Shown here one piece after another: positions 30,020-41,024 of a stretch of DNA of 64,000 nucleotides. Position 1 is the stretch's first letter, and every line of letters begins with the position of its first letter. The notes under the pieces were generated by a model that ran no database searches, was not told where the DNA came from, and saw only the letters and a list, made by a program, of their open reading frames with translations. This DNA is from Halorubrum hochsteinianum (GTDB lineage: Archaea > Halobacteriota > Halobacteria > Halobacteriales > Haloferacaceae): assembly GCF_023702125.1 (NCBI RefSeq), contig NZ_CP098415.1:930001-994000 (forward strand). The letters are read 5' to 3'. The translations under genes and the position numbers were made by a program.

Positions 30020-31828
30020 TTACATCGACTCCGGCGCGTCGACGCCCAGCACGTCAAGCGCGTTCGCCATCGTGTGCTTCGCGGCCGCGACGACCGCGAG
30101 GCGGGCGGCGCGCAGGTCGTCCGTCTCGGCGGTCACGACCGGGCACTCGCGGTAGAACGCGTTGTAGGCGTCGGCGAACTCGCGGGTGAACGTCGCGATC
30201 GTGTGGGGCTCCAAGTCCTCCGCGGCGGCCTCGATCACCGCGGGGAACCGCGCGACCTCGCGGAGGAGGTCGCGGGCCGCGTCGGTCTCGAGGTCGCTCG
30301 CGTCCACGTCGAGCGCGTCGGCGTCGACCGCGCCGTCGGCGTCCGCCGTCACGACCGGCACGTCGATCCCGGCGGCCGCGGCCTCGCTCAGGATGCCGGC
30401 GCAGCGCGCGTGGACGTACTGGACGAACGGGGCGGACTGCGCCTCGAAGTCGAGCGCGTCCTCCCACTCGAAGGTGATCGCCTTCGCGGGCTGTTTGGAG
30501 ACGATGTCGTACCGGACCGCGCCGATCCCGACCTGATGAGCGATGCGCTCGACGTCCGCCTCGGTGAGGTCGTCGTCGCGGATCCGGTCGTCCATCCGGG
30601 ACTCGACGGCGTCGCGGGCGCGGTCGATCGCCTCGTCGAGCAGGTCGTCGAGCATCACGCCGGTCCCCCGGCGGGTGGACATCTTCCCGTCGGGGAGGTT
30701 GACGTACGAGTAGATGACGTTGCCGAGGCGGTCGGTGTCGTTGCCGAGCAGTTCGAGCGTCGCGTCCAGTTGGTCGGCCTGGAGCTTGTGGTCCTCGCCG
30801 AGGACGGTGACCGCGCGGTCGTAGTTCGCGAACTTCCACTCGTGGTGAGCCAGGTCGCGGGTGGTGTAGAGGCTCGTGTCGTCCGAGCGCAGGAAGACGA
30901 GGTTCTTATCGATCCCCCACTCGTCGAGTTCGAGCTGCCAGGCGTCCTCCTCGTAGACGGCCTGATCGGTCTCTTTGAGCCGCTCGGCGACGTCGTCCGT
31001 CGAGCCGTCGCGCATGAACCGCGTCTCCTTGACGAACTCGTCGAACTCGGCGGGCAGGCGGGCGAGACAGTCCTTCATGCCGCCGAGGACGGTGTCGACG
31101 ACCTCGCCGACGCGCTCGTAGGTCTCCTCGTCGCCGGCTTCGAGCCCCTGAAGGATCGACTGGATCTCCGCTTCGGCCGCCTCGACGGCGTCCTCGTCGG
31201 CCTCCTCCAGGTAGGCGTTCCCCTTCCGGTAGTAGCGCACGAGGTCGTACTCGGCGCGGTCGCGGGCGGGCGCTTCGTCGAGGTCGGCCTCGTCGAACCG
31301 CTCGTAGGCCCACGTGAACACCGCCATCTGCCGGCCGGCGTCGTTGACGTAGTAGTGGCGGTCGACGTCGTAGCCGGCGTATTCGAGGAGGTTCGCCACC
31401 GCGTCGCCGACGATGGGGTTCCGGGCGCGGCCGACGTGGACCGGCCCCGTCGGGTTCGCGCTCGTGTGTTCGACCACGACGGAGGTCTCCCTGTCGGGGA
31501 GCGCGCCGTAGCCGGCGTCGGCGGCCGCCGCGTCGAGCGTGTCGGCGAGGTAGCGCGCGTTCGCGTGGAAGTTGACGTACGGGCCGGCGGTGTCGACCGA
31601 CGCGACGTAGTCGGTCCCAGAGACGTTGACGGCCTCGGCGACCGTCGCCGCGACGTTCGGGGGGGCGTCCCCGACCTCGCCGGCGAGTCGGAAGGCGACG
31701 CTGGAGGCGAGCGTCGCGTCCATCTCCTCCGGCGGGCGTTCGATGCCGAGGTCGTCGGTCGGGAGGTCGAGGTCGGCGAGCGCCGCTTCGACCGCGGCCT
31801 CGACCTCCGACCGGAACTGCCTGAACAT
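30020..31828 (-). CDS. argS: arginyl-tRNA synthetase
   Basis: 602 residues. Class I signature HVGR at 131-134 (HIGH equivalent) and KMSTRRGTG (KMSKR equivalent). N-terminal tRNA-binding domain ([17 protein letters not shown]..., GPYVNFHAN) and C-terminal anticodon-binding helical domain ending in DALRVLGV-like sequence ([14 protein letters not shown]). It charges tRNA-Arg. Single gene, followed downstream by aRF1; its upstream region contains a repeat element. Confidence 0.97.
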
Positions 31829-31910: not shown

Positions 31911-32203
31911 TGCGGTGGCGTCGTCGGCGGCTCCGCCGCCGGCTGCCAGAGGCGCGTCGCGCCTCACTGCGCGCCTGCGAGCGGTCGCCCCCGCCGACCG
32001 CGACGCAGCGCCGCGCGAGGGAGTCGGCCGACCGTAGGGAGGCCGACGAGGTTGGGGAGGCGTGAGGTGCCGTGCGGAGCGGTATGGGGCGGGACTCGAA
32101 GGGCCAGTCGCGAGGCGGGCAGAGGTGACGTAAGGACCACAGCGAGTGAGCGAAGCGAACGAGCGAGGACCGCAACGAGCGTCTGCCCGCCTCGCGACTG
32201 GGG
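31911..32203. repeat. multi-hairpin intergenic element, copy 1
   Basis: GC-rich stretch without a credible gene, sharing ordered blocks with 38382-38670: TGCGGTGGCG, GGCTGCCAGAGG, GCCTGCGAGCGGTCGCC, TTGGGGAGGCGTGAGGTGC (C for the second T in copy 2), GACGTAAG and GAGCGAAGCGA. It holds several inverted repeats: 31925-31931 with 31935-31941; 32023-32029 with 32041-32047; and a perfect 20-bp pair, 32104-32123 with 32182-32201. Stems occur at matching places in copy 2 but with different sequences. Open frames here are GC-driven shadows. A tandem repeat array follows directly. Confidence 0.75.
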
Positions 32204-32480
32204 CTTCGGTGGTCGCAGTCACGGAGGTACTCTCAGCGAAACCACTCACGTACAGCCGAGCGGCTGGGGCTTCGGTGGTCGCAGTCACGGAGGTACTCTC
32301 AGCGAAACCACTCACGTACAGCCGAGCGGCTGGGGCTTCGGTGGTCGCAGTCACGGAGGTACTCTCAGCGAAACCACTCACGTACAGCCGAGCGGCTGGG
32401 GCTTCGGTGGTCGCAGTCACGGAGGTACTCTCAGCGAAACCACTCACGTACAGCCGAGCGGCTGGGGCTTCGGCGGTCTC
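32198..32480. repeat. 66-bp tandem repeat array (about 4.3 copies)
   Basis: Four near-perfect copies at 32198-32263, 32264-32329, 32330-32395 and 32396-32461, then a partial degenerate copy to about 32480. The unit begins CTGGGGCTTCGGTGGTCGC and ends CACGTACAGCCGAGCGG or a close variant. 66 is a multiple of three, which produces spurious repeat ORFs on both strands. The array starts inside the right arm of the large hairpin. Copy 2 of the element has a single related unit of about 51 bp at the same place. Confidence 0.95.
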
Positions 32481-32534
32481 GGTTACAGCGTCGATCTCGA
32501 CGAAAACAGTCCCGTACTGCCGGTCGTCCGCGTC

Positions 32535-33470
32535 TCAGTCGACGATCCCCTCGATCAGCTCGCGCGCGCTCCGCCGGACCGCATCGTCGCTCTCGATCGA
32601 GGGCTCCCAACCCAGATCGACCAGCTTCTCGATCGACAGCCGCATCTTCGGCACGTCGCCCGTCCAGCCGCGGTCGCCGCCCGTGTAGGAGTACTCGGGG
32701 TCGACGCCCAGCTCCTCGCTGACGATGTCGGCAATCTGGGTCACCGAGGTCGTCGTCCGCGTCCCGAGGTTGTAGACGTTGTACTCGTCGTCCGCGTGCT
32801 CGACGACGTGCTGGATGGCGTCGACGCACTCGGTGACGTGCATGTACGACTTCTCCTGTCTGCCGTCGCCGAGGATCTCGAGTTCCGTCGGGTCCTCGTC
32901 GAGTTTCTGGATGAAGTCGGGGATCACGTTCCCGCGCTGGTGCGGGCCGACGATGTTCGCGAAGCGGAACACCCACGACTGAATCCCGTACGAGTGGGCG
33001 TGCGTCGAGATCAGTCCCTCGTCGGCGAGCTTCGAGGAGCCGTAGATCGAGATGGGTTCGGGGGGGGCGTAGTCCTCCGGAGTCGGCCGGGGAGCCTCAC
33101 CGTACACGGTCGACGAGGAGGTGAACGCGAACCGGTCGATCCCGGCCTCGCGCATCCGGTCTAAGACGTTGTACGTCATCTCCGTGTTCTCCTCGAAGAG
33201 GACACGGTCGTCGTCGTAGTTCGTGTCCGTGTACGCCGCGAAGTGGAAGACGGCGTCGAGGTCGTCGGTGACCGCGTGGGCGACGTCGTCGGGGTCGGTC
33301 AGGTCCGCCCCGACGAACGCGGCCCCGTCCGGCACGCGGTCGCGGGTCCCCTTCGAGAGGTCGTCGGCGACGCGGACGGTCGCCCCGCGGTCGAGCAGGC
33401 TCGCGGCGAGGTGGCTTCCGACCAGCCCGGCTCCGCCGGTGACGAGGACGCGCGAATCGGCGAGGTTCAT
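32535..33470 (-). CDS. NAD-dependent nucleotide-sugar epimerase/dehydratase (GalE-like)
   Basis: 311 residues from ATG 33470; the much longer open frame upstream is a shadow of the permease gene. Extended SDR: Rossmann loop VTGGAGLVGSHLA, Ser/Thr triad SSSTVYGEA, catalytic YGSSK (Tyr-x-x-x-Lys) and the substrate-side FRFANIVGPHQRGNVIPDFIQKL. It likely acts on a UDP- or dTDP-sugar (4-epimerase or 4,6-dehydratase class). It faces away from the iron-box cluster but is surrounded by glycosyltransferases, so it may supply an activated sugar to them. The exact sugar cannot be read from sequence. Confidence 0.88.
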   Translation of the reverse strand: MNLADSRVLVTGGAGLVGSHLAASLLDRGATVRVADDLSKGTRDRVPDGAAFVGADLTDPDDVAHAVTDDLDAVFHFAAYTDTNYDDDRVLFEENTEMTYNVLDRMREAGIDRFAFTSSSTVYGEAPRPTPEDYAPPEPISIYGSSKLADEGLISTHAHSYGIQSWVFRFANIVGPHQRGNVIPDFIQKLDEDPTELEILGDGRQEKSYMHVTECVDAIQHVVEHADDEYNVYNLGTRTTTSVTQIADIVSEELGVDPEYSYTGGDRGWTGDVPKMRLSIEKLVDLGWEPSIESDDAVRRSARELIEGIVD

Positions 33471-33574
33471 ACCGGTCCGTCGGCGGTGGCGGGTAAGTAC
33501 GTGTGGGATCGCGAGCGCGGTCGGTGGCGCTCGCTTCGGAGCGCGGTCGTTCGTCCGGGCGGAAGACCGGCGTG

Positions 33575-35185
33575 TTACAGCCCCTCTTGCCCGCCCTCCT
33601 GCGAGAGGAGGACGACCATCGAGAGCCCGGAGATGACGAGCAGGATCAGCGTCGGCACCACCGCGTACTGGTACAGCGCTGACGCCTGTGCGCGCCAGAT
33701 CTGGGTGACGATCGTCTCGAACCCGGAGGGGCGGAGGATCAGCGTGACGGGGAGTTCCTTCATCGCGGTGAGGAACACGAGGGCAGCGCCGGCGACGATT
33801 CCCGACCGGGTGAGCGGGAGCGTGACCCGCTTGAACGCCCCCATCGAGGACTCGCCGAGCGTCCGGCCCGCCTCCACGAGCCGGGGGTCGACCTGGAGGA
33901 TCGACGTGCGGCTCGACCCGACCGCCTGCGGGAGGAAGCGCACGACGTACGCGAACACGAGGAGCGGCAGCGTCTGGTAGATCCACGGCAGGTAGCCGGA
34001 GCCGAAGTAGACGAGCGCCAGCGCGAGGACGATACCGGGCACCGCGAAGCCGACGTACGTCGCGCGCTCGAAGAGGACGGCGAGCCGCGAGTCGTGGTTC
34101 GCGGCGAAGTACGCGATGGGGATCGCCGCCAGCGCGGCGACGACCGCCGCCGCGAGCGACACCGACAGCGAGTTGAGGACGTAGACCGGCTCGAACGCCA
34201 TCGACGGGCGGCGGCCCGCCTCCGACCGGAGCAGCCACAGGCCGAGGATCCACAGCGGGACGAGGAGCGCGAGCCCGGACACCCCCGCGGGCAGGAGCGT
34301 CGCCGGCCACCGGAGCCGGCCGAGCGACACCCGGTCGTCGGTGCGGCCCGCGTCGTCGCCGTGCGAGGACGCGTCGGAGCGCACGAGCCACTCCAGCGCG
34401 AGCACGAACAGGACGACGACGAGCAGCTGTAAGGAGAGCAGCGCGGCGTAGTCGCTCCCGAAGGAGTTGTACTCGACGTATATCTGCCGGGTGAACACCG
34501 ACAGCCGCATGATCGACGGCGTCCCGAAGTCGGAGACCGCGTACAGCGCCGCGAGCAGCGACCCGGCGGCGATCGCCGGGCGGATCGCGGGCAGCGTCAC
34601 CCGGCGGAACGACGCGAGGCGACCGTGGTTCAGCGTCCGCGCCGCCTCCAACAGCGTGGTGTCGAACGACAGCAGCGCGGCCCGCGTCGTCAGGTAGACG
34701 TAGGGGTACGTGTACAGCGTGATGACGAGTATCGACCCGGGGAGGCCGTATATCTCCGGAACCCGCTCGATCCCGAGCGGCGAGAGAATCTCGTGGAACT
34801 CCCCGCGGGGGCCGAACGCGGAGACGAACGAGAACGCGCCGACGTAGCTGGGCACGACGAGCGGGAGCGCGGCCGCCACCGCCCAGAACCGCCGGAACGG
34901 GAGGTCGGTCCGGGCGGTGAGGTACGCGAGCGGGACGCCGATCGCGATCGACAGCGTCGTGACGCCGACCATCAGGAGGAGGCTGTTGACGACGGTCTCG
35001 GCGGTGCGGATGCTGAGGGTGAGTTCGACGGCGCGCGCGGGATCGACGGTGACCGCCTCGATCACGAGCCACGCCAGCGGGAAGACGAGGACGGCCGCGA
35101 TCGCCGCACACAGCAGCGTCAGCCCCAGCGGTACTCGGTCCTCCCCGTCGGTCAGCCGGTCGCGGATCCGGGTTATCGGGCTCAT
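33575..35185 (-). CDS. Fe(III)-type ABC transporter permease (fused two-domain, FbpB/SfuB-like)
   Basis: 536 residues from ATG 35185. About 12 membrane segments in two homologous halves, each with an EAA loop that contacts the ATPase: EAARTLNHGRLASFRRVTLP and EAGRTLGESSMGAFKRVTLP. The fused arrangement is typical of ferric-iron uptake permeases. The matching Tat-exported binding protein is at 41038-42162. No ABC ATPase gene is in the window, so that subunit must be encoded elsewhere. The iron-box palindrome at 35264-35279 lies about 80 nt upstream, between this gene and the divergent GMC pair. Confidence 0.92.
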   Translation of the reverse strand: MSPITRIRDRLTDGEDRVPLGLTLLCAAIAAVLVFPLAWLVIEAVTVDPARAVELTLSIRTAETVVNSLLLMVGVTTLSIAIGVPLAYLTARTDLPFRRFWAVAAALPLVVPSYVGAFSFVSAFGPRGEFHEILSPLGIERVPEIYGLPGSILVITLYTYPYVYLTTRAALLSFDTTLLEAARTLNHGRLASFRRVTLPAIRPAIAAGSLLAALYAVSDFGTPSIMRLSVFTRQIYVEYNSFGSDYAALLSLQLLVVVLFVLALEWLVRSDASSHGDDAGRTDDRVSLGRLRWPATLLPAGVSGLALLVPLWILGLWLLRSEAGRRPSMAFEPVYVLNSLSVSLAAAVVAALAAIPIAYFAANHDSRLAVLFERATYVGFAVPGIVLALALVYFGSGYLPWIYQTLPLLVFAYVVRFLPQAVGSSRTSILQVDPRLVEAGRTLGESSMGAFKRVTLPLTRSGIVAGAALVFLTAMKELPVTLILRPSGFETIVTQIWRAQASALYQYAVVPTLILLVISGLSMVVLLSQEGGQEGL

Positions 35186-35255
35186 GGTCGGGGACGCCTG
35201 TCGGTCGAAGGATGGACGCAACCGCCGTTAGGGGTTCCGATCGCGCTCCGACGGA

Positions 35256-35279
35256 TATATTAATTTAGGGCTGCCTAAA
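35256..35279. promoter_or_regulatory. TATA box plus iron-box operator 1 (TTTAGGGCTGCCTAAA)
   Basis: ATATATTA at 35256-35263 is directly followed by TTTAGGGCTGCCTAAA at 35264-35279, ending 6 nt before ATG 35286. Arms TTTAGG/CCTAAA are perfect. A bound repressor would cover the transcription start of the GMC operon; the divergent permease may share it. Confidence 0.75.
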
Positions 35280-35285
35280 ACCTCT

Positions 35286-35858
35286 ATGGAACTGACGCGG
35301 CGCGACGCGGCGGCGGCGCTGGCCGCCCTCGGCGCGAGCGGCGGGGTCGCGCTCGGCGCGCGGGTCGCCGCGGACCGCGGCCGCGACGCCGACGCCGCCG
35401 GCGGTCCGGAAGGCGACGGGACCGGGGACGGCGCGCCGGCCGACGACGAGACGGTCCGCGAGACGCTGACCGCCGTCGCGGCGGTCGTCTACCCCGACGA
35501 CGCGTCCGGCGTCGACGAGTTCGTCGAGGGGTTCCTCGACGGTCGGCTCGACGGCTCCGCGCACGCGGCGGGCGTCCGCGAGGCGGTCGCGGAGCTGAAC
35601 CGGCTCGCCCGCTCGTGGCACGGCGGCGCGGTCGCCGACCTCGACCCCGCGGACCGCGACCGACACCTCAGGGAGATCGGCGCTGACGTCGCCGAGGAGG
35701 ACCCGGACGGGACGACCGCCGAGCGGGTCCGCTACTACGTCGTCAACGAGCTGCTGCTCGCGTTCTACGCCTCGCCGACCGGGGGCGAGCTCGTCGGGAT
35801 CGAGAACCCGCAGGGACACCCGGGCGGCGCGGAGAGCTACCGACGGGGGCCGCGATGA
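35286..35858 (+). CDS. Tat-exported small subunit, gluconate 2-dehydrogenase subunit 3-like
   Basis: 190 residues. The N-terminus MELTRRDAAAALAALGASGG carries a twin-Arg motif and a hydrophobic h-region, typical of the subunit 3 family that escorts a GMC flavoprotein across the membrane via Tat. The C-terminal part has the family pattern TLTAVAAVVYPDDASGVDEFV and ELLLAFYASPTGGELVGIENPQGHPGG. The next gene, overlapping by 4 nt (ATGA), encodes the flavoprotein. Transcription probably starts between the TATA and ATG under operator 1. It likely acts outside the membrane. Confidence 0.85.
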   Translation: MELTRRDAAAALAALGASGGVALGARVAADRGRDADAAGGPEGDGTGDGAPADDETVRETLTAVAAVVYPDDASGVDEFVEGFLDGRLDGSAHAAGVREAVAELNRLARSWHGGAVADLDPADRDRHLREIGADVAEEDPDGTTAERVRYYVVNELLLAFYASPTGGELVGIENPQGHPGGAESYRRGPR

Positions 35859-37504
35859 GCGCGGGGGACGGGCCGGCGGGAAGCGCCGGGAACGCGGCCG
35901 CCGTCGACCGGACGCCCGTCCCCGACGCGGACGTCTGCGTCGTCGGGGCGGGCCCCGCCGGGGCGCTCGTCGCCGACCGGCTCGCGGCCGACCGCGAGGT
36001 GGTGATACTCGACGCCGGACCGCGGTTCGACGCCGGCGACCGGCTCGCGCGACAGGAGCGGGCGATCCGACCGTCCTACGGCCGACCCGACGTGTGGGAC
36101 GTGGGCGGTGCGCGCGACGCCTACGAGAACGCCGGGTCGACGGAGTGGCGCTACCCGCTGAACCACGCCCGGGTGAAGGGGGTCGGCGGATCGACGCTCC
36201 ACTGGCAGGGGATGGTGATGCGGCTCCACGAGGACGACTTCAACTCCGGAGCCGAGCGCGGCGCGGGCCCCGGCTGGCCGATCGACTACGCGGACCTGCG
36301 GCCCTACTACGCCGAGGCGGAGCGCGAACTCGGCGTCGCGGGCGCGTCCGACAACCCCTACGCGCCGCCCCGGGAGGAGCCGCACCCGATGCCGGCGTTC
36401 GAGCCGTCCTACAGCGACTCGCTGTTCGCCGAGGCCTGCGAGTCGGTCGGGATCGACATGCACTCGGTGCCGAACGCGCGCAACTCCGAGGCGTACGACG
36501 GCCGGTCGGCCTGCGTCGGCTACGGCACCTGCCAGCCGGTGTGCCCCTCGGGCGCGAAGTACGACGCGACGGTCCACGTCGAGCGCGCCGAGGACGCCGG
36601 CGCGACCGTGATCGACCGCGCGCCGGTCGAGCGGCTCGACCACGACGGCGACGACCGGGTGACGGCCGCCGTCTACGCGACGCCCGACGGCGAGCGACAC
36701 CGGCAGGAGGCGGACGCGTTCGTCGTCGCCGCCGGCGGAGTGGAGACGCCGCGGCTCCTCCTGCTCTCCGCGTCCGACCGCCATCCCGACGGGCTGGCGA
36801 ACTCCAGCGGGGCGGTCGGGCGGTTCTTCATGGACCACCTGTTCGCGGGGGCGGGCGGGACGCTCGACGAGCCGACGCGACAGAACCACGTCGGCTTCTA
36901 CACCAGCGCCTGCGACCAGTTCTACGACGAGGCGGACGAGACGCAGGCCCCGTTCAAGCTGGAGTTCTTCAACTACGCCGGCCCCTCGCCCGTGGAGTCG
37001 GCGCTGGCCGGCGACGACTGGGGCGACCCCCTCTTAGAGCGGCTGCGCGGCGAGTACGGGAACCACGTCGCGATGGGCGCGCTCGTCGAGCAGCTCCCCG
37101 ACGCCGACAGCCGGATCACGCTCGCCGACGACCGCGTCGACGACCGCGGCAACCCCGTCCCCGAGATCGACTGGACCGTCGGCGACCGCGCGCTCGACAC
37201 GATCGAACGGGCCAACGAGATTCAGGTGGAGGTCTTAGAGGAGCTCGGGGCCGACGTCGAGTGGGTCGCCGGCCCCGACGCCACCGGACCCGCGTACCAC
37301 CACATGGGCACGACGCGGATGAGCGACGACCCCGATCGGGGCGTCGTCGACGCCCGCTGCCGGACCCACGACCTGGAGAACTGCTGGATCGCCTCCAGCT
37401 CCGTCTTCCCGACGAGCGGCGCGATGAACCCCACGCTCACCATCGCCGCGCTCGCGCTCCGCGTCGGCGACGACGTGGCCGGCTGGCTCGCGGGCGAGAC
37501 CTGA
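35855..37504 (+). CDS. GMC-family flavoprotein oxidoreductase (gluconate/sugar dehydrogenase large subunit-like)
   Basis: 549 residues. FAD-binding GAGPAG (31-36), GMC substrate domain, active-site His482/His483 region AYHHMGTTRMSDDP and C-terminal SGAMNPTLTI with Asn525. A CX5CX3C group (Cys220, Cys226, Cys230; CVGYGTCQPVCPSGAKYDA) matches sugar dehydrogenases of the gluconate/fructose type, where such cysteines bind a [3Fe-4S] cluster. No signal peptide of its own, so it would be exported with the Tat subunit encoded just before. It probably oxidises a sugar or sugar acid and passes electrons to the membrane. The substrate is unknown. Confidence 0.9.
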   Translation: MSAGDGPAGSAGNAAAVDRTPVPDADVCVVGAGPAGALVADRLAADREVVILDAGPRFDAGDRLARQERAIRPSYGRPDVWDVGGARDAYENAGSTEWRYPLNHARVKGVGGSTLHWQGMVMRLHEDDFNSGAERGAGPGWPIDYADLRPYYAEAERELGVAGASDNPYAPPREEPHPMPAFEPSYSDSLFAEACESVGIDMHSVPNARNSEAYDGRSACVGYGTCQPVCPSGAKYDATVHVERAEDAGATVIDRAPVERLDHDGDDRVTAAVYATPDGERHRQEADAFVVAAGGVETPRLLLLSASDRHPDGLANSSGAVGRFFMDHLFAGAGGTLDEPTRQNHVGFYTSACDQFYDEADETQAPFKLEFFNYAGPSPVESALAGDDWGDPLLERLRGEYGNHVAMGALVEQLPDADSRITLADDRVDDRGNPVPEIDWTVGDRALDTIERANEIQVEVLEELGADVEWVAGPDATGPAYHHMGTTRMSDDPDRGVVDARCRTHDLENCWIASSSVFPTSGAMNPTLTIAALALRVGDDVAGWLAGET

Positions 37505-37521
37505 CGGCGCTGCGTCACTAA

Positions 37522-37537
37522 TTTAGGCAAACCTAAA
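37522..37537. promoter_or_regulatory. iron-box operator 2 (TTTAGGCAAACCTAAA)
   Basis: Perfect 6-bp arms TTTAGG/CCTAAA, 18 nt after the GMC stop. A TATA-like CTAATTTAG overlaps its left edge. It lies 11 nt before GTG 37549 and 32 nt before ATG 37570 of the glycosyltransferase gene. Confidence 0.75.
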
Positions 37538-37569
37538 AACTCAAGTGCGTGCGGGCGGAGTTCCGGGTA

Positions 37570-38355
37570 ATGAGCGACTCAGCGCACGCGACGAACGGGT
37601 CCGCGGCCGCCGTCGACGGCGACGCGGACACGGTGAGCCACGCGGACGAGGCGACCGGCGAGGCCGCCGAACCGTACACCTTCGCGGACCTCAGCGTCGT
37701 GATGGGGACGTACAACGAGGAGGAGGCGATCGGGACGGTGCTGGAGGACATCGACGAGGTCACCGACGGGGAGGCGGAGGTCGTCTGCGTCGACGGCTCC
37801 TCGGACCGGACGCCGGAGATCGCCCGCGAACACGGCGCGACGGTGATCGAACAGGAGCCGCAGGGGTACGGCGTCGCCGTTCGGGAGGCGGTCTTGACGC
37901 CCGACCGCCCCGTGGTCGTCACGACCGACTGCGACGACACCTACCCGATGGAGGCGCTGCCGGAGTTTCTCGCGGCGATCAACGACGGCGCGGACGTGGT
38001 GAGCGGCGACCGGCTCTACCACGGCGCGGAGGCGATGCCCGCGTTCAACAGGCTCGGCAACCACGCGTTCGCGGCGATCGCCTCGCTCCTGATGGGCGAG
38101 CGCGTCCACGACACCACCACCGGAATGCGCGCGTACCGCCGCGAGGTCGTCGAGGAGATCGGCTGGACCGAGAACACCGGCCTCTCCGCCGAACTCCTGA
38201 TCCGGCCGCTGATGCGCGGCCACGACGTGCGCGAGCGCCCGATTCACTACGCCGAGCGCCTCGGCGAGACGAAGCTCGACCCGATCGGCGGCGGGGCCGC
38301 CATCGCGAAGTCGATCGTCACCGTCTGTCTCGAAGAGCAGCTGCGGCGCTTCTGA
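37570..38355 (+). CDS. GT2 glycosyltransferase, dolichyl-phosphate mannose/glucose synthase-like
   Basis: 261 residues from ATG 37570. An in-frame GTG at 37549 is 11 nt from the operator and would fit a leaderless start as seen at the other iron boxes, so the start is uncertain. GT-A fold: VVMGTYNEEEAIGTVLEDI, VCVDGSSDRTPEIAREHGA, metal-binding TTDCDDTYPME (DxD-like) and GERVHDTTTGMRAYRREVVEEI. No C-terminal membrane domain. Family members move a hexose from a nucleotide sugar to a polyprenyl phosphate on the cytoplasmic face. Its promoter carries operator 2, tying it to the iron-box set. Confidence 0.88.
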   Translation: MSDSAHATNGSAAAVDGDADTVSHADEATGEAAEPYTFADLSVVMGTYNEEEAIGTVLEDIDEVTDGEAEVVCVDGSSDRTPEIAREHGATVIEQEPQGYGVAVREAVLTPDRPVVVTTDCDDTYPMEALPEFLAAINDGADVVSGDRLYHGAEAMPAFNRLGNHAFAAIASLLMGERVHDTTTGMRAYRREVVEEIGWTENTGLSAELLIRPLMRGHDVRERPIHYAERLGETKLDPIGGGAAIAKSIVTVCLEEQLRRF

Positions 38356-38368
38356 GCGGCGACAGCTC

Positions 38369-38373
38369 TTTTT
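38369..38373 (+). terminator. oligo-T terminator after the GT2 gene
   Basis: A T5 run (GCTCTTTTTCAATC), 14 nt past the stop at 38355, immediately before copy 2 of the hairpin element. Confidence 0.4.
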
Positions 38374-38381
38374 CAATCATC

Positions 38382-38670
38382 TGCGGTGGCGCGTGCCTGC
38401 GAGCGGTCGCCCTCGGCGACCGCGAGACGGCACGCGCGAGGTTGCCGGCGCTGCGCGCCGGCTGCCAGAGGGGCCGAAGGTCCCTCGCTGGACGCGGCGA
38501 GCGCTCGGAGAGCGTGAGCCGCGAGGCTGGGGAGGCGTGAGGTGCTGTGCGGTCGCGGTGGGCGGGGCTCGAAGGGGCAGCCCGGAGGTGGACAGAGGCG
38601 ACGTAAGCACCGCAGGAACGAGCGAAGCGAGTGAAGAGGAGCGCAGCGAGCGTCTGTCCACCTCCGGGCC
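38382..38670. repeat. multi-hairpin intergenic element, copy 2
   Basis: Homologous to 31911-32203 by shared blocks, with two internal blocks in swapped order. Inverted repeats: 38389-38397 with 38429-38437, nested around 38403-38411 with 38415-38423; 38444-38451 with 38455-38462; 38493-38498 with 38518-38523; and a 16-bp perfect pair, 38581-38596 with 38653-38668. The stem sequences differ from copy 1 while pairing is kept. A degenerate tail repeat (CTTCGGCGGCC / CTTCGACGGCC, 51 bp apart) runs to about 38755. There is no gene in 38356-38780. Confidence 0.75.
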
Positions 38671-38780
38671 AGGGCTTCGGCGGCCATGTCGCCAGAATGG
38701 ATCGCGTCGTGGTGAGCGGCTGAGACTTCGACGGCCACACCACTCGATCCGGTACCGCGAGCGCGACCGACCTCCCGATC

Positions 38781-41024
38781 TCACTCGGTTTCGGCGGCCG
38801 TCTCGAAGACCACCCACTCCGAGTGCTCGTTGGGCTGGTCGGGGAGGTACGTCCCCTCGCTCCCGCACTCCGTGACGAGCCGACAGACAGACCGCTCGGG
38901 CGGCCAGACGACCTCGACGCGACCGGAATCGACCCCGCGGACCGTCGCCTCCTGTCGGTAGGTGAACGTCGAGCCGTCGGGCGCGACCAGCGTCACGGTG
39001 AGGACCGCGACGTCGCCCGCCGGGTCGATCGACGCCGAGCCGTTCGGCGCGCCCGCCAGCCGGACCCCGTCGGGACCGACGGACCACTCGACCGCGAGCG
39101 GGTCGCCGGCGTCGGGGTCGCTCACCGCGTACGTCGTCCGCCCCTCGCCGCGGCGCGTCTCGATCCGGACCCGAGCGGTGTCGACGCGCTCGGGGACCCC
39201 CACCGTCGTCTCGGCGTCCACGCGCGAGCCGGACCGCACCGCGATCGGCTCCAGTTTCGGCGTGACGCGGTCGTCCGGGTCCGCGGTCCACGCCCCGCGG
39301 TAGCCGTAACGGTAGTGAGTGCGGTTCGGGTAGGCGTCGAGGACCGCGAAGTCCTCGACCGGGTCGCGGTCGAGCGCGTACACCGCGTCCCCGTCGAGTC
39401 CCGGCTCGTTCCGAAGCCCCTGGAACGGGTGGTTGAGCCACTCGCCGTACGGCGTGGGGACGAACACCAGCGCGTCCTCGAACTCGGTCTCCTCGAACGG
39501 GGCGTAGGCGGCCTCGTGTTTGGCGTCGATGGCCGCGTTGCGCTCGACCGGCTCCGAGGCGGTCGCGACCGCGGCCCCGCCGGCGGCGAGCAGCGCGACC
39601 GCGACGACGAGCGCGACCGCGGCGCGCGCGCTCCCGTCGGACCCGGTCCGGGCCGCGATCCGCGCGCGGAGCCGCGGCAGCGACCGCGCTCCGGCGGCGA
39701 CGGCGACCCCGCCGAACACCGAGAACGGGACGAGCAGGTCGAAGTGGTAGAACGGCCCGAACAGCGACGCCAGCCCGTCGGCCGGGTCCGACAGCGTCGC
39801 GAGCGCGTTGTGCGTCCCCCAGAAGAACAGGTTGCCGACGACGACGGCGGGAACGACGCCGGCGACGAGCAGGGCCGCCGTCCGCCGGAACGCCGGCGAC
39901 CCGGGTGAGTCGGGGGAGTGGGGAGAGTCGAGTGAGTCGGAGGAGTCGTCCCCGGGGGCGGCGGCCGGGAAGAGGTCGAGACCGGCGCGCCACCGCCGGA
40001 CCGCGACCGCGCCGCCGGCGAGCGCGAGCAGCGTCCCGACCGGTCCCGCCGCGACCCACCGGGTCGCGAGCACCCACAGCGCGTACCCGTTCGATTCGAG
40101 CGCCAGCGCGGGCGTGTACTCGACCGAGTGGCCAAGGATGCGGCGCTCGCCGAACCCGGGACCGTCCATCGGCGCGAACGCCTGATACGGGAAGGTGAGC
40201 GCGGAGCCGGTCACCCGCAGGTTGTACGCGAGCGTGACGCCGACGAACAGCGTCCCGAACAGCGCCGTCAGGCCGTGCCTGCGGACCGGGGCGGGGAGCG
40301 TCGGGAGGTTCAGGCCCTCGGCCGCGACCGCCGACCCAACCCGCCACAGCGCGTGTGCGATGAACGGGGCCGCGAACAGCACCGCGGTGAACGGGCGCGC
40401 GAAGAAGGCGATCCCGATCGCGACGCCGGCGACGCCGGCGGCCGCGGTCGACCCGTCGCGGACGCTCCGGAGGTACGCGACCGCGAACAGGAGGTTGAAG
40501 AACGTCGTCGGCGCGTAGGGGAGAAATGTCGCACCGGTGAGGACCGCCATCGGCGACGCCGCGAACAGGACGGCCGCCGCGAGTCCGGCCCGCCGACCGG
40601 CGGTCATGGCCCCGAGCAGGTAGACGAGCGCGGCGTTGCCCGCGGCGACCGCCGCGAGCGTCACCCGCGGCTCGTCGAACAGGGCCATCGAAACCGCGTA
40701 CGTCGCCGCCGGAACGGGGCTGTACTTCGGGTAGAGCCGCCCGCCGTCCTCGACGAAGAACCACGGGTGGACGGCGTCGGCGAGGGGACCGGCGTGGAAC
40801 TCCAGTTGCCCGCCGAGCAGGAGCGCGGCCTGCGTGAGGTAGACGCCCTCGTCGTGGTTCGCGGAGTGGTGCGAGAACAGGGTGGCGGCGACCGCGAACG
40901 TGAGGAGCCCCGCGGCGAGCGAGACGCAGACCGCGGCGGCCGTCGTCCGGTCCGCGCGAGCGACGCGCTGGCGGAACCAAGACGCGGACCACGCGAGAGG
41001 GGACGGGGCGGGGCGGGACGACAC
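38781..41024 (-). CDS. polytopic GT39/ArnT-like membrane glycosyltransferase
   Basis: 747 residues from GTG 41024. The first membrane helix is followed by the acidic NHDEGVYLTQ motif in the first loop, characteristic of polyprenyl-phosphate-sugar-dependent (GT39/GT83, GT-C) transferases. About 10-12 further spans run to about residue 480, then a soluble C-terminal domain of about 260 residues rich in beta segments, with sequons. A Ser/Pro/Asp repeat (DSSDSLDSPHSPDSPGSP, about 363-381) sits in a loop. Such enzymes transfer a sugar from a lipid carrier outside the membrane, which suits the lipid-linked-sugar synthase and flippase-like genes nearby. It follows the iron-binding lipoprotein by 13 nt, so it shares that iron-box promoter. 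Confidence 0.78.
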   Translation of the reverse strand: MSSRPAPSPLAWSASWFRQRVARADRTTAAAVCVSLAAGLLTFAVAATLFSHHSANHDEGVYLTQAALLLGGQLEFHAGPLADAVHPWFFVEDGGRLYPKYSPVPAATYAVSMALFDEPRVTLAAVAAGNAALVYLLGAMTAGRRAGLAAAVLFAASPMAVLTGATFLPYAPTTFFNLLFAVAYLRSVRDGSTAAAGVAGVAIGIAFFARPFTAVLFAAPFIAHALWRVGSAVAAEGLNLPTLPAPVRRHGLTALFGTLFVGVTLAYNLRVTGSALTFPYQAFAPMDGPGFGERRILGHSVEYTPALALESNGYALWVLATRWVAAGPVGTLLALAGGAVAVRRWRAGLDLFPAAAPGDDSSDSLDSPHSPDSPGSPAFRRTAALLVAGVVPAVVVGNLFFWGTHNALATLSDPADGLASLFGPFYHFDLLVPFSVFGGVAVAAGARSLPRLRARIAARTGSDGSARAAVALVVAVALLAAGGAAVATASEPVERNAAIDAKHEAAYAPFEETEFEDALVFVPTPYGEWLNHPFQGLRNEPGLDGDAVYALDRDPVEDFAVLDAYPNRTHYRYGYRGAWTADPDDRVTPKLEPIAVRSGSRVDAETTVGVPERVDTARVRIETRRGEGRTTYAVSDPDAGDPLAVEWSVGPDGVRLAGAPNGSASIDPAGDVAVLTVTLVAPDGSTFTYRQEATVRGVDSGRVEVVWPPERSVCRLVTECGSEGTYLPDQPNEHSEWVVFETAAETE

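Follow-up and report, generated by a model that had tools for sequence, protein, structure and literature searches.

How can hairpins at separate places in one chromosome carry different stem sequences and still pair? The question is raised by two copies of a repeat, at 31911-32208 and 38382-38679 of a 64,000-nucleotide (nt) stretch of Halorubrum hochsteinianum DNA (contig NZ_CP098415.1, positions 930,001 to 994,000; the whole stretch is here called the window), which an original prediction read as whole-stem replacement with retained pairing, the mark of selection on structure or of a process that rewrites hairpins. The repeat, ~240 nt long, is a structured element that codes for no protein, forms several hairpins, and is scattered through the genome; its modules follow the order 5' block, P1/P2 hairpin, GCGAGGGA, P3, core GAGGCTGGGGAGGCGTGAGG, GCGGT-rich linker, and long P4 hairpin. 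It probably evolves by exchange of whole hairpin cassettes between copies, coupled with selection for pairing. Counting of the core in the 3.06-Mb genome to which the window belongs gives at least 125 copies (66 on the + strand and 59 on the - strand), and a backward-sequence control gives 0.

The stems of these copies covary. The boundaries of P3 and P4 are fixed by the flanking conserved blocks, regardless of pairing; P3 is 97% paired over 107 distinct stems (G·T included, as for P4), versus 18-55% when the partners are slid by 1-3 nt, and P4 is 97.5% paired over 177 distinct stems, versus 32-47% when slid. Shuffling of partners among copies leaves 66% (P3) and 70% (P4). The outer P4 pair, which lies beyond a GGG/GGG loop, is GAAG/C in 88 copies, AAAG/T in 87, and mismatched in 4; a separate 3-bp helix between P1 and P2 is 85% paired in 129 distinct heads versus 31% when shuffled, and isolated helices of 3 bp and 2 bp covary. 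An alignment of 18 copies shows compensatory double changes in 29 of 52 pairs, with a covariation score of 0.337 versus 0.135 for shuffled partners (0 of 500 shuffles reach it) and at most 0.061 for slid ones. Covariation over many copies, which the original prediction had proposed as its test, is therefore found far beyond chance, and arms arising by chance in GC-rich DNA do not account for it. Two long-range helices from RNAalifold (columns 11-15/151-155 and 56-60/115-119) vary too little for support and were excluded from the covariation test.

Elements stay at orthologous sites, and the stems there resemble each other no more than the stems of random copies do. In two relatives, 42 orthologous sites with flanks 93.5% identical give a P3 similarity of 0.65 versus 0.62 for unrelated copies, and one of 0.96 for the core. 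One genome of this comparison (G233) is a draft with runs of N, and the comparison was redone against the single-contig genome G232; at 34 orthologous sites with flanks 91% identical, similarity is 0.64 for P1/P2 (0.65 in random pairs), 0.67 for P3 (0.64), 0.70 for the P4 arms (0.73), and 0.96 for the core. The single-contig genome gives the same result as the draft, and assembly artefact is rejected as the source of the stem turnover. At one locus of the draft (L372, G233:C50:40000-44000), an adapter-like CTGTCTCTTATACACATCT and runs of N lie inside elements; assemblies break at the repeat.

Modules also assort independently. Among 40 complete copies of the window's genome, similarity in one of P1/P2, P3, P4 arm, and P4 interior does not predict similarity in another (Mantel r -0.06 to 0.07), and 37 of the 81 P3 stems (46%) recur exactly at another site of the genome, usually beside a different P1/P2 and P4. 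Mosaics, in which at least one module is kept and another lost, make up 9 of 19 fully parsed ortholog pairs. The cleanest single-module replacement is that between L038 of the window's genome and its ortholog L351 in G233: the two are almost base-for-base the same in the upstream flank, P1/P2, core, linker, P4, and downstream tail, and the 44-nt P3 of L038 (GTCGCGAGCGATCGGGCGACCGCAGGGAGCCCAAAGCGAGCGAC) is replaced in L351 by a stem of ~30 nt (GCGGTGAGGGCTCATAGAGCGCGAACCGC); other copies have stems of both types as well. At another locus (L460 and L461, in genomes G104 and G211), P1 to P3 are identical and the P4 arms the same, with the P4 interior inverted in place. In addition, element and flanking sequence are replaced together, over some 20-40 nt upstream and more than 100 nt (a tail of ~120 nt) downstream. 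Hairpin rewriting, one of the two processes first put forward for the pair of copies, is supported by the turnover of stems between orthologs, the lack of linkage among modules, the exact twins of P3, and the replacement of a single module.

The other, selection on structure, is supported by the covariation together with an asymmetry between the strands. Read on the + strand, P3 has 16 G·T and 1 A·C mismatches (p=0.0003), and P4 has 48 and 11 (p=1e-6; 36 versus 11 over distinct arm pairs); P3 apices (GCGAAGC, ACCGAAGGGA) keep a single orientation, 135 versus 2. Because a transition in a G-C pair of duplex DNA gives G·T or A·C equally, the excess of G·T reveals that a single strand, the + strand, is selected to fold. 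The results support selection acting on a folded + strand, as RNA or as single-stranded DNA (ssDNA). RNA appears the most likely form, judged from sequence features: the conserved unpaired blocks and orientation-fixed loops resemble RNA contact sites, and the genome has no Y1 transposase (0 matches to PF01797, the TnpA_REP/RAYT family, despite 125 copies), a result that rules out a RAYT/Y1 link for this genome.

In the favoured explanation, the element would be a single strand, most likely of RNA, that folds as read in the window's + orientation, with unpaired blocks, conserved also in other haloarchaeal genera, that may be its functional, protein-contacting parts, and with stem sequence free to vary provided that pairing holds. 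Since the same short unpaired blocks recur in more than 100 copies, they could serve as homology anchors at which whole hairpins are swapped among copies, by ectopic gene conversion or recombination or by template switching; both arms would move together, and pairing would survive. P4 interiors would flip by inversion, and double-hairpin inserts would be gained and lost. Its likeliest role would be that of a multi-copy RNA whose core block binds a protein; it may also be selfish. Frequent recombination is known in Halorubrum (PMC3990103), and stems are known to be made and repaired by template switching (PMC8794818). A stronger version, possible but speculative, is that the copies draw on a common store of hairpin cassettes that can stand in for one another, serving a single strand-specific RNA (or ssDNA) family, with dedicated or RNA/ssDNA-mediated exchange across more than 100 loci far above the background rate; each locus would then keep its fold, and none would keep the same stems for as long as a species lasts.

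Several observations weigh against cassette exchange in a folded RNA. The remaining 54% of P3 stems in the window's genome have no exact twin among the sampled copies, and donors elsewhere or later changes are needed to explain them; the comparison of L038 with L351 is draft-based on one side. In 13 of ~185 copies the P4 interior is inverted, which is unexpected in an RNA under constraint. Many hairpin loops are triloops of the cGAAg type, with cGCAg and cGGAg types too; cGAAg-type triloops are also extra-stable hairpin loops of DNA, so that the strand could be ssDNA. About one copy in five has a TATA-like motif 11-17 nt ahead of its 5' block, and TTTATAA-like motifs recur 31-40 nt past the 3' end (for example in L007, L021, and L249); these may be promoters, targets, or remnants. 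An archaeal transcription start exactly at the first base of the element is unlikely, because the motifs ~12-15 nt upstream are too close. Orientation relative to tandem neighbouring genes is unbiased (40:51, from a crude gene caller on which all counts of genomic position rest; its counts of copies within long open reading frames were set aside).

If the folded strand were ssDNA, the element could be a mobile one, with + strand hairpins read for shape by a recombinase or replication protein and stems that vary because only shape is read, by analogy with integron attC sites or ssDNA transposons. Strand asymmetry suits any single strand, and the triloops, the unbiased orientation, and the inserts and inversions at the level of DNA fit this explanation, as does genomic position: convergent-gene gaps are enriched (59 of 172 copies versus a background of 55 of 317) and divergent-gene gaps depleted (22 of 172 versus 84 of 317). 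It is nevertheless rather unlikely. Besides the missing Y1 transposase, sites remain occupied across species instead of moving, empty sites are seen with no clean target duplication (their flanks are too diverged to place one), and no associated recombinase was identified (for transposases, the Y1 family alone was searched). An ordinary repeat resembling a miniature inverted-repeat transposable element (MITE) or a repetitive extragenic palindromic (REP) sequence, which disappears from the same intergenic hot spots and inserts there anew time after time, could also place different copies at orthologous sites. The many intergenic copies, their depletion between divergent genes, the joint divergence of element and ~120-nt tail, and the TATA-like motif found at a set spacing from either end, which could be a target, all speak for reinsertion; it is improbable, however, since the mosaic orthologs and the P3-only swap between L038 and L351 require exchange in place within the element, the modules are unlinked, and the Y1 transposase is again wanting.

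Selection for folding could even be dispensed with if complementarity came from mutation at palindromes in DNA (template switching, quasi-palindrome correction, or cruciform repair) and the conserved blocks from recent copying. Template switching is able both to form stems and to correct them (PMC8794818), and the P4 inversions and the loop flips in double-hairpin inserts are of this kind. A process acting on the duplex, however, predicts equal G·T and A·C rather than the 16:1 and 48:11 seen, and neither the unflipped P3 loops (135:2), nor the covarying isolated helices of 3 and 2 bp, nor the core blocks common to other genera are in its favour; such an origin is very improbable and is already disfavoured. 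Exchange of hairpin cassettes under selection for pairing thus remains the preferred explanation.

The two copies in the window show how these modules are arranged. Direct reading of the sequence confirms the blocks that they were said to share, and they have a common order that includes the 5' block GCGGTGGCG, GGGCGGGACTCRAAGGGG before P4, and GGGGCTTYGG after P4; both fold better than 100 of 100 dinucleotide shuffles (z -5.7 for copy 1 and -4.7 for copy 2). All features lie on the + strand. In copy 1, the conserved 5' block TGCGGTGGCG (31911-31920) is followed by an optional double-hairpin insert 5' of P1/P2 (31921-31969; arms 31925-31931/31935-31941, linker CTGCCAGAG), the P1/P2 hairpin domain with the conserved GCGCGAGGGA (31970-32022), a P3 stem (32023-32047; arms 32023-32029/32041-32047, apex GACCGTAGGGA) that has an exact twin in L015, the conserved core GAGGTTGGGGAGGCGTGAGG (32048-32067), a GCGGT-like G-rich linker up to GGGCGGGACT (32068-32096), and P4 (32097-32208), in which an outer pair CGAAG/CTTCG encloses perfect 20-bp arms (32104-32123/32182-32201) and an interior at 32124-32181. 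Copy 2 has the same 5' block TGCGGTGGCG (38382-38391), the P1/P2 domain extending to CGCGAGG (38392-38441; P2 38404-38411/38415-38422), a double-hairpin insert between P1/P2 and P3 (38442-38491), the P3 stem (38492-38523; arms 38493-38498/38518-38523), the conserved core GAGGCTGGGGAGGCGTGAGG (38523-38542), the G-rich GCGGT-like linker (38543-38569), and P4 (38570-38679; outer pair CGAAG 38570-38574/CTTCG 38675-38679, perfect 16-bp arms 38581-38596/38653-38668). The hairpin arms named in advance for both copies are all present, including 38444-38451/38455-38462 within the insert of copy 2.

Some details of the original prediction need revision. Its end for copy 1, 32203, is too early, as this copy continues to ~32518 in a tail (32189-32518, + strand, family D1) of tandem 66-nt units. 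This array consists of about five units, each with the element's 3' end, GGCTGGGGCTTCGG, at its start; many copies have a tail of this kind, and at other loci it contains a TTTATAA motif. Two internal blocks had been described as swapped between the copies; the order does differ, and the difference comes from the optional double-hairpin insert, which is movable: copy 1 has it on the 5' side of P1, copy 2 between P1/P2 and P3. The hairpins at 31925/31935 and 38444/38455, taken to be equivalent, both belong to this insert and are not positional equivalents. Copy 1 sits between two minus-strand features, upstream of an arginyl-tRNA synthetase gene (30020-31828) and downstream of an open reading frame ending at 32535 that resembles an NAD-dependent epimerase; both are named from their translations with no family search. 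The genes on either side of copy 2 (37549-38355 and 38781-41024) are convergent.

The double-hairpin insert, for example TCG-hairpin-CTGCCAGAG-hairpin-CTCGCTG, has several insertion points, both orientations, and variable arms; by a strict pattern the window's genome has 15, most of them ~70 nt before a core. Inserts with constant arms are seen at L362, L296, L219, and other loci, with loops both ways (GAA/TTC and GGA/TCC), as if the tips flip. A further insert, with GGAAGTCGCAGCCCGCG and CCGTCTTCCGG/CGTCTTCCGG ends, lies in the GCGGT linker of several copies (L223, L257, and L461).

An order-wide sample has the element in all genomes of the same genus, with 14-178 copies each, and in one genus of another family, with up to ~103 copies in some species and 0 in others; most haloarchaea in the sample have 0 copies. 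Named matches are chiefly to Halorubrum, and also to Haloparvum, Halorussus, and Halobellus. Other genera preserve the order GCGAGGGA-P3-core-(GCGGTN)n with different stems, and often have another 3' part. Relatives that lack P4 and have GGCAGTAGCTAGCTTC after the GCGGT tract occur in haloarchaea of other families (L063-L077), as if the same 5' domain were fused to a different 3' domain. The second contig of the window's genome (C2, ~101 kb) has 0 copies, versus ~4 expected if they were uniform; a hint of clustering by replichore or strand among the 40 best copies is gone with all 125 (68 runs versus 63.3 expected). The window has 0 Rfam matches at the gathering score, and relaxed thresholds yield only weak matches to miRNA models, none of them credible. 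Viral contigs and phages searched for the element gave 0 matches, and a viral origin is unsupported; plasmid records gave 5 matches, weak and partial.

From these results, haloarchaea appear to have a structured element, genus-wide and high in copy number, that is so far undescribed. The compensatory evolution of stems tends to be regarded as slow and pair-by-pair; here, over hundreds of copies and dozens of genomes, whole stems are replaced where the flanks are still >90% identical and module boundaries are visible. As the block replacement is visible, including a case in which one stem only is replaced, the rewriting of stems with retained pairing is directly measurable. The element also shows that strong covariation can arise when ready-made stems are copied from one paralogue to another, a point of relevance to covariation tests, and it offers a natural experiment on the maintenance and rewriting of nucleic-acid structures.

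Dispersed repeats, covarying stems, and double-hairpin inserts are each already a known kind; their combination (genus-wide, more than 100 copies, interchangeable hairpin cassettes, full turnover, and a fold kept at each site) was not found in the searchable literature, in which no paper on such an element or on the core sequence was found. Integron attC sites keep their shape while stem sequence varies, and one strand folds, as in this element; this element, in contrast, is not cassette-associated and has no integrase linked to it. REP sequences and bacterial interspersed mosaic elements with RAYT transposases are alike in having more than 100 intergenic palindromic copies per genome (PMC2817692; PMC3733652). 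They differ in being single palindromes of 20-40 nt, whereas this element has ~240 nt, several hairpins, conserved unpaired blocks, stems wholly different between copies, and a genome without a Y1 transposase. MITEs and other small non-autonomous repeats, such as the MITEs of Haloquadratum, are likewise dispersed and non-coding with no gene of their own (PMC2229807; PMC3119063); this element has no terminal inverted repeats (its ends, GCGGTGGCG at 5' and GGGGCTTCGGCGGT at 3', lack complementarity), its sites are kept genus-wide, and its hairpin modules assort independently. The palindromic and double-hairpin elements of organelles in Volvox (PMC2670323) and placozoans (PMC7813641) resemble the nested inserts, with two hairpins, a constant linker, and variable arms, but here the setting is an archaeal chromosome and the inserts lie almost only inside one larger, strand-specific element. 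Covarying RNA families of the Rfam type share the conserved unpaired blocks, the compensatory changes, and the tolerance of G·T on one strand; this element, with no Rfam match, differs from them in having more than 100 copies per genome and in exchanging its stems as blocks faster than its flanks diverge.

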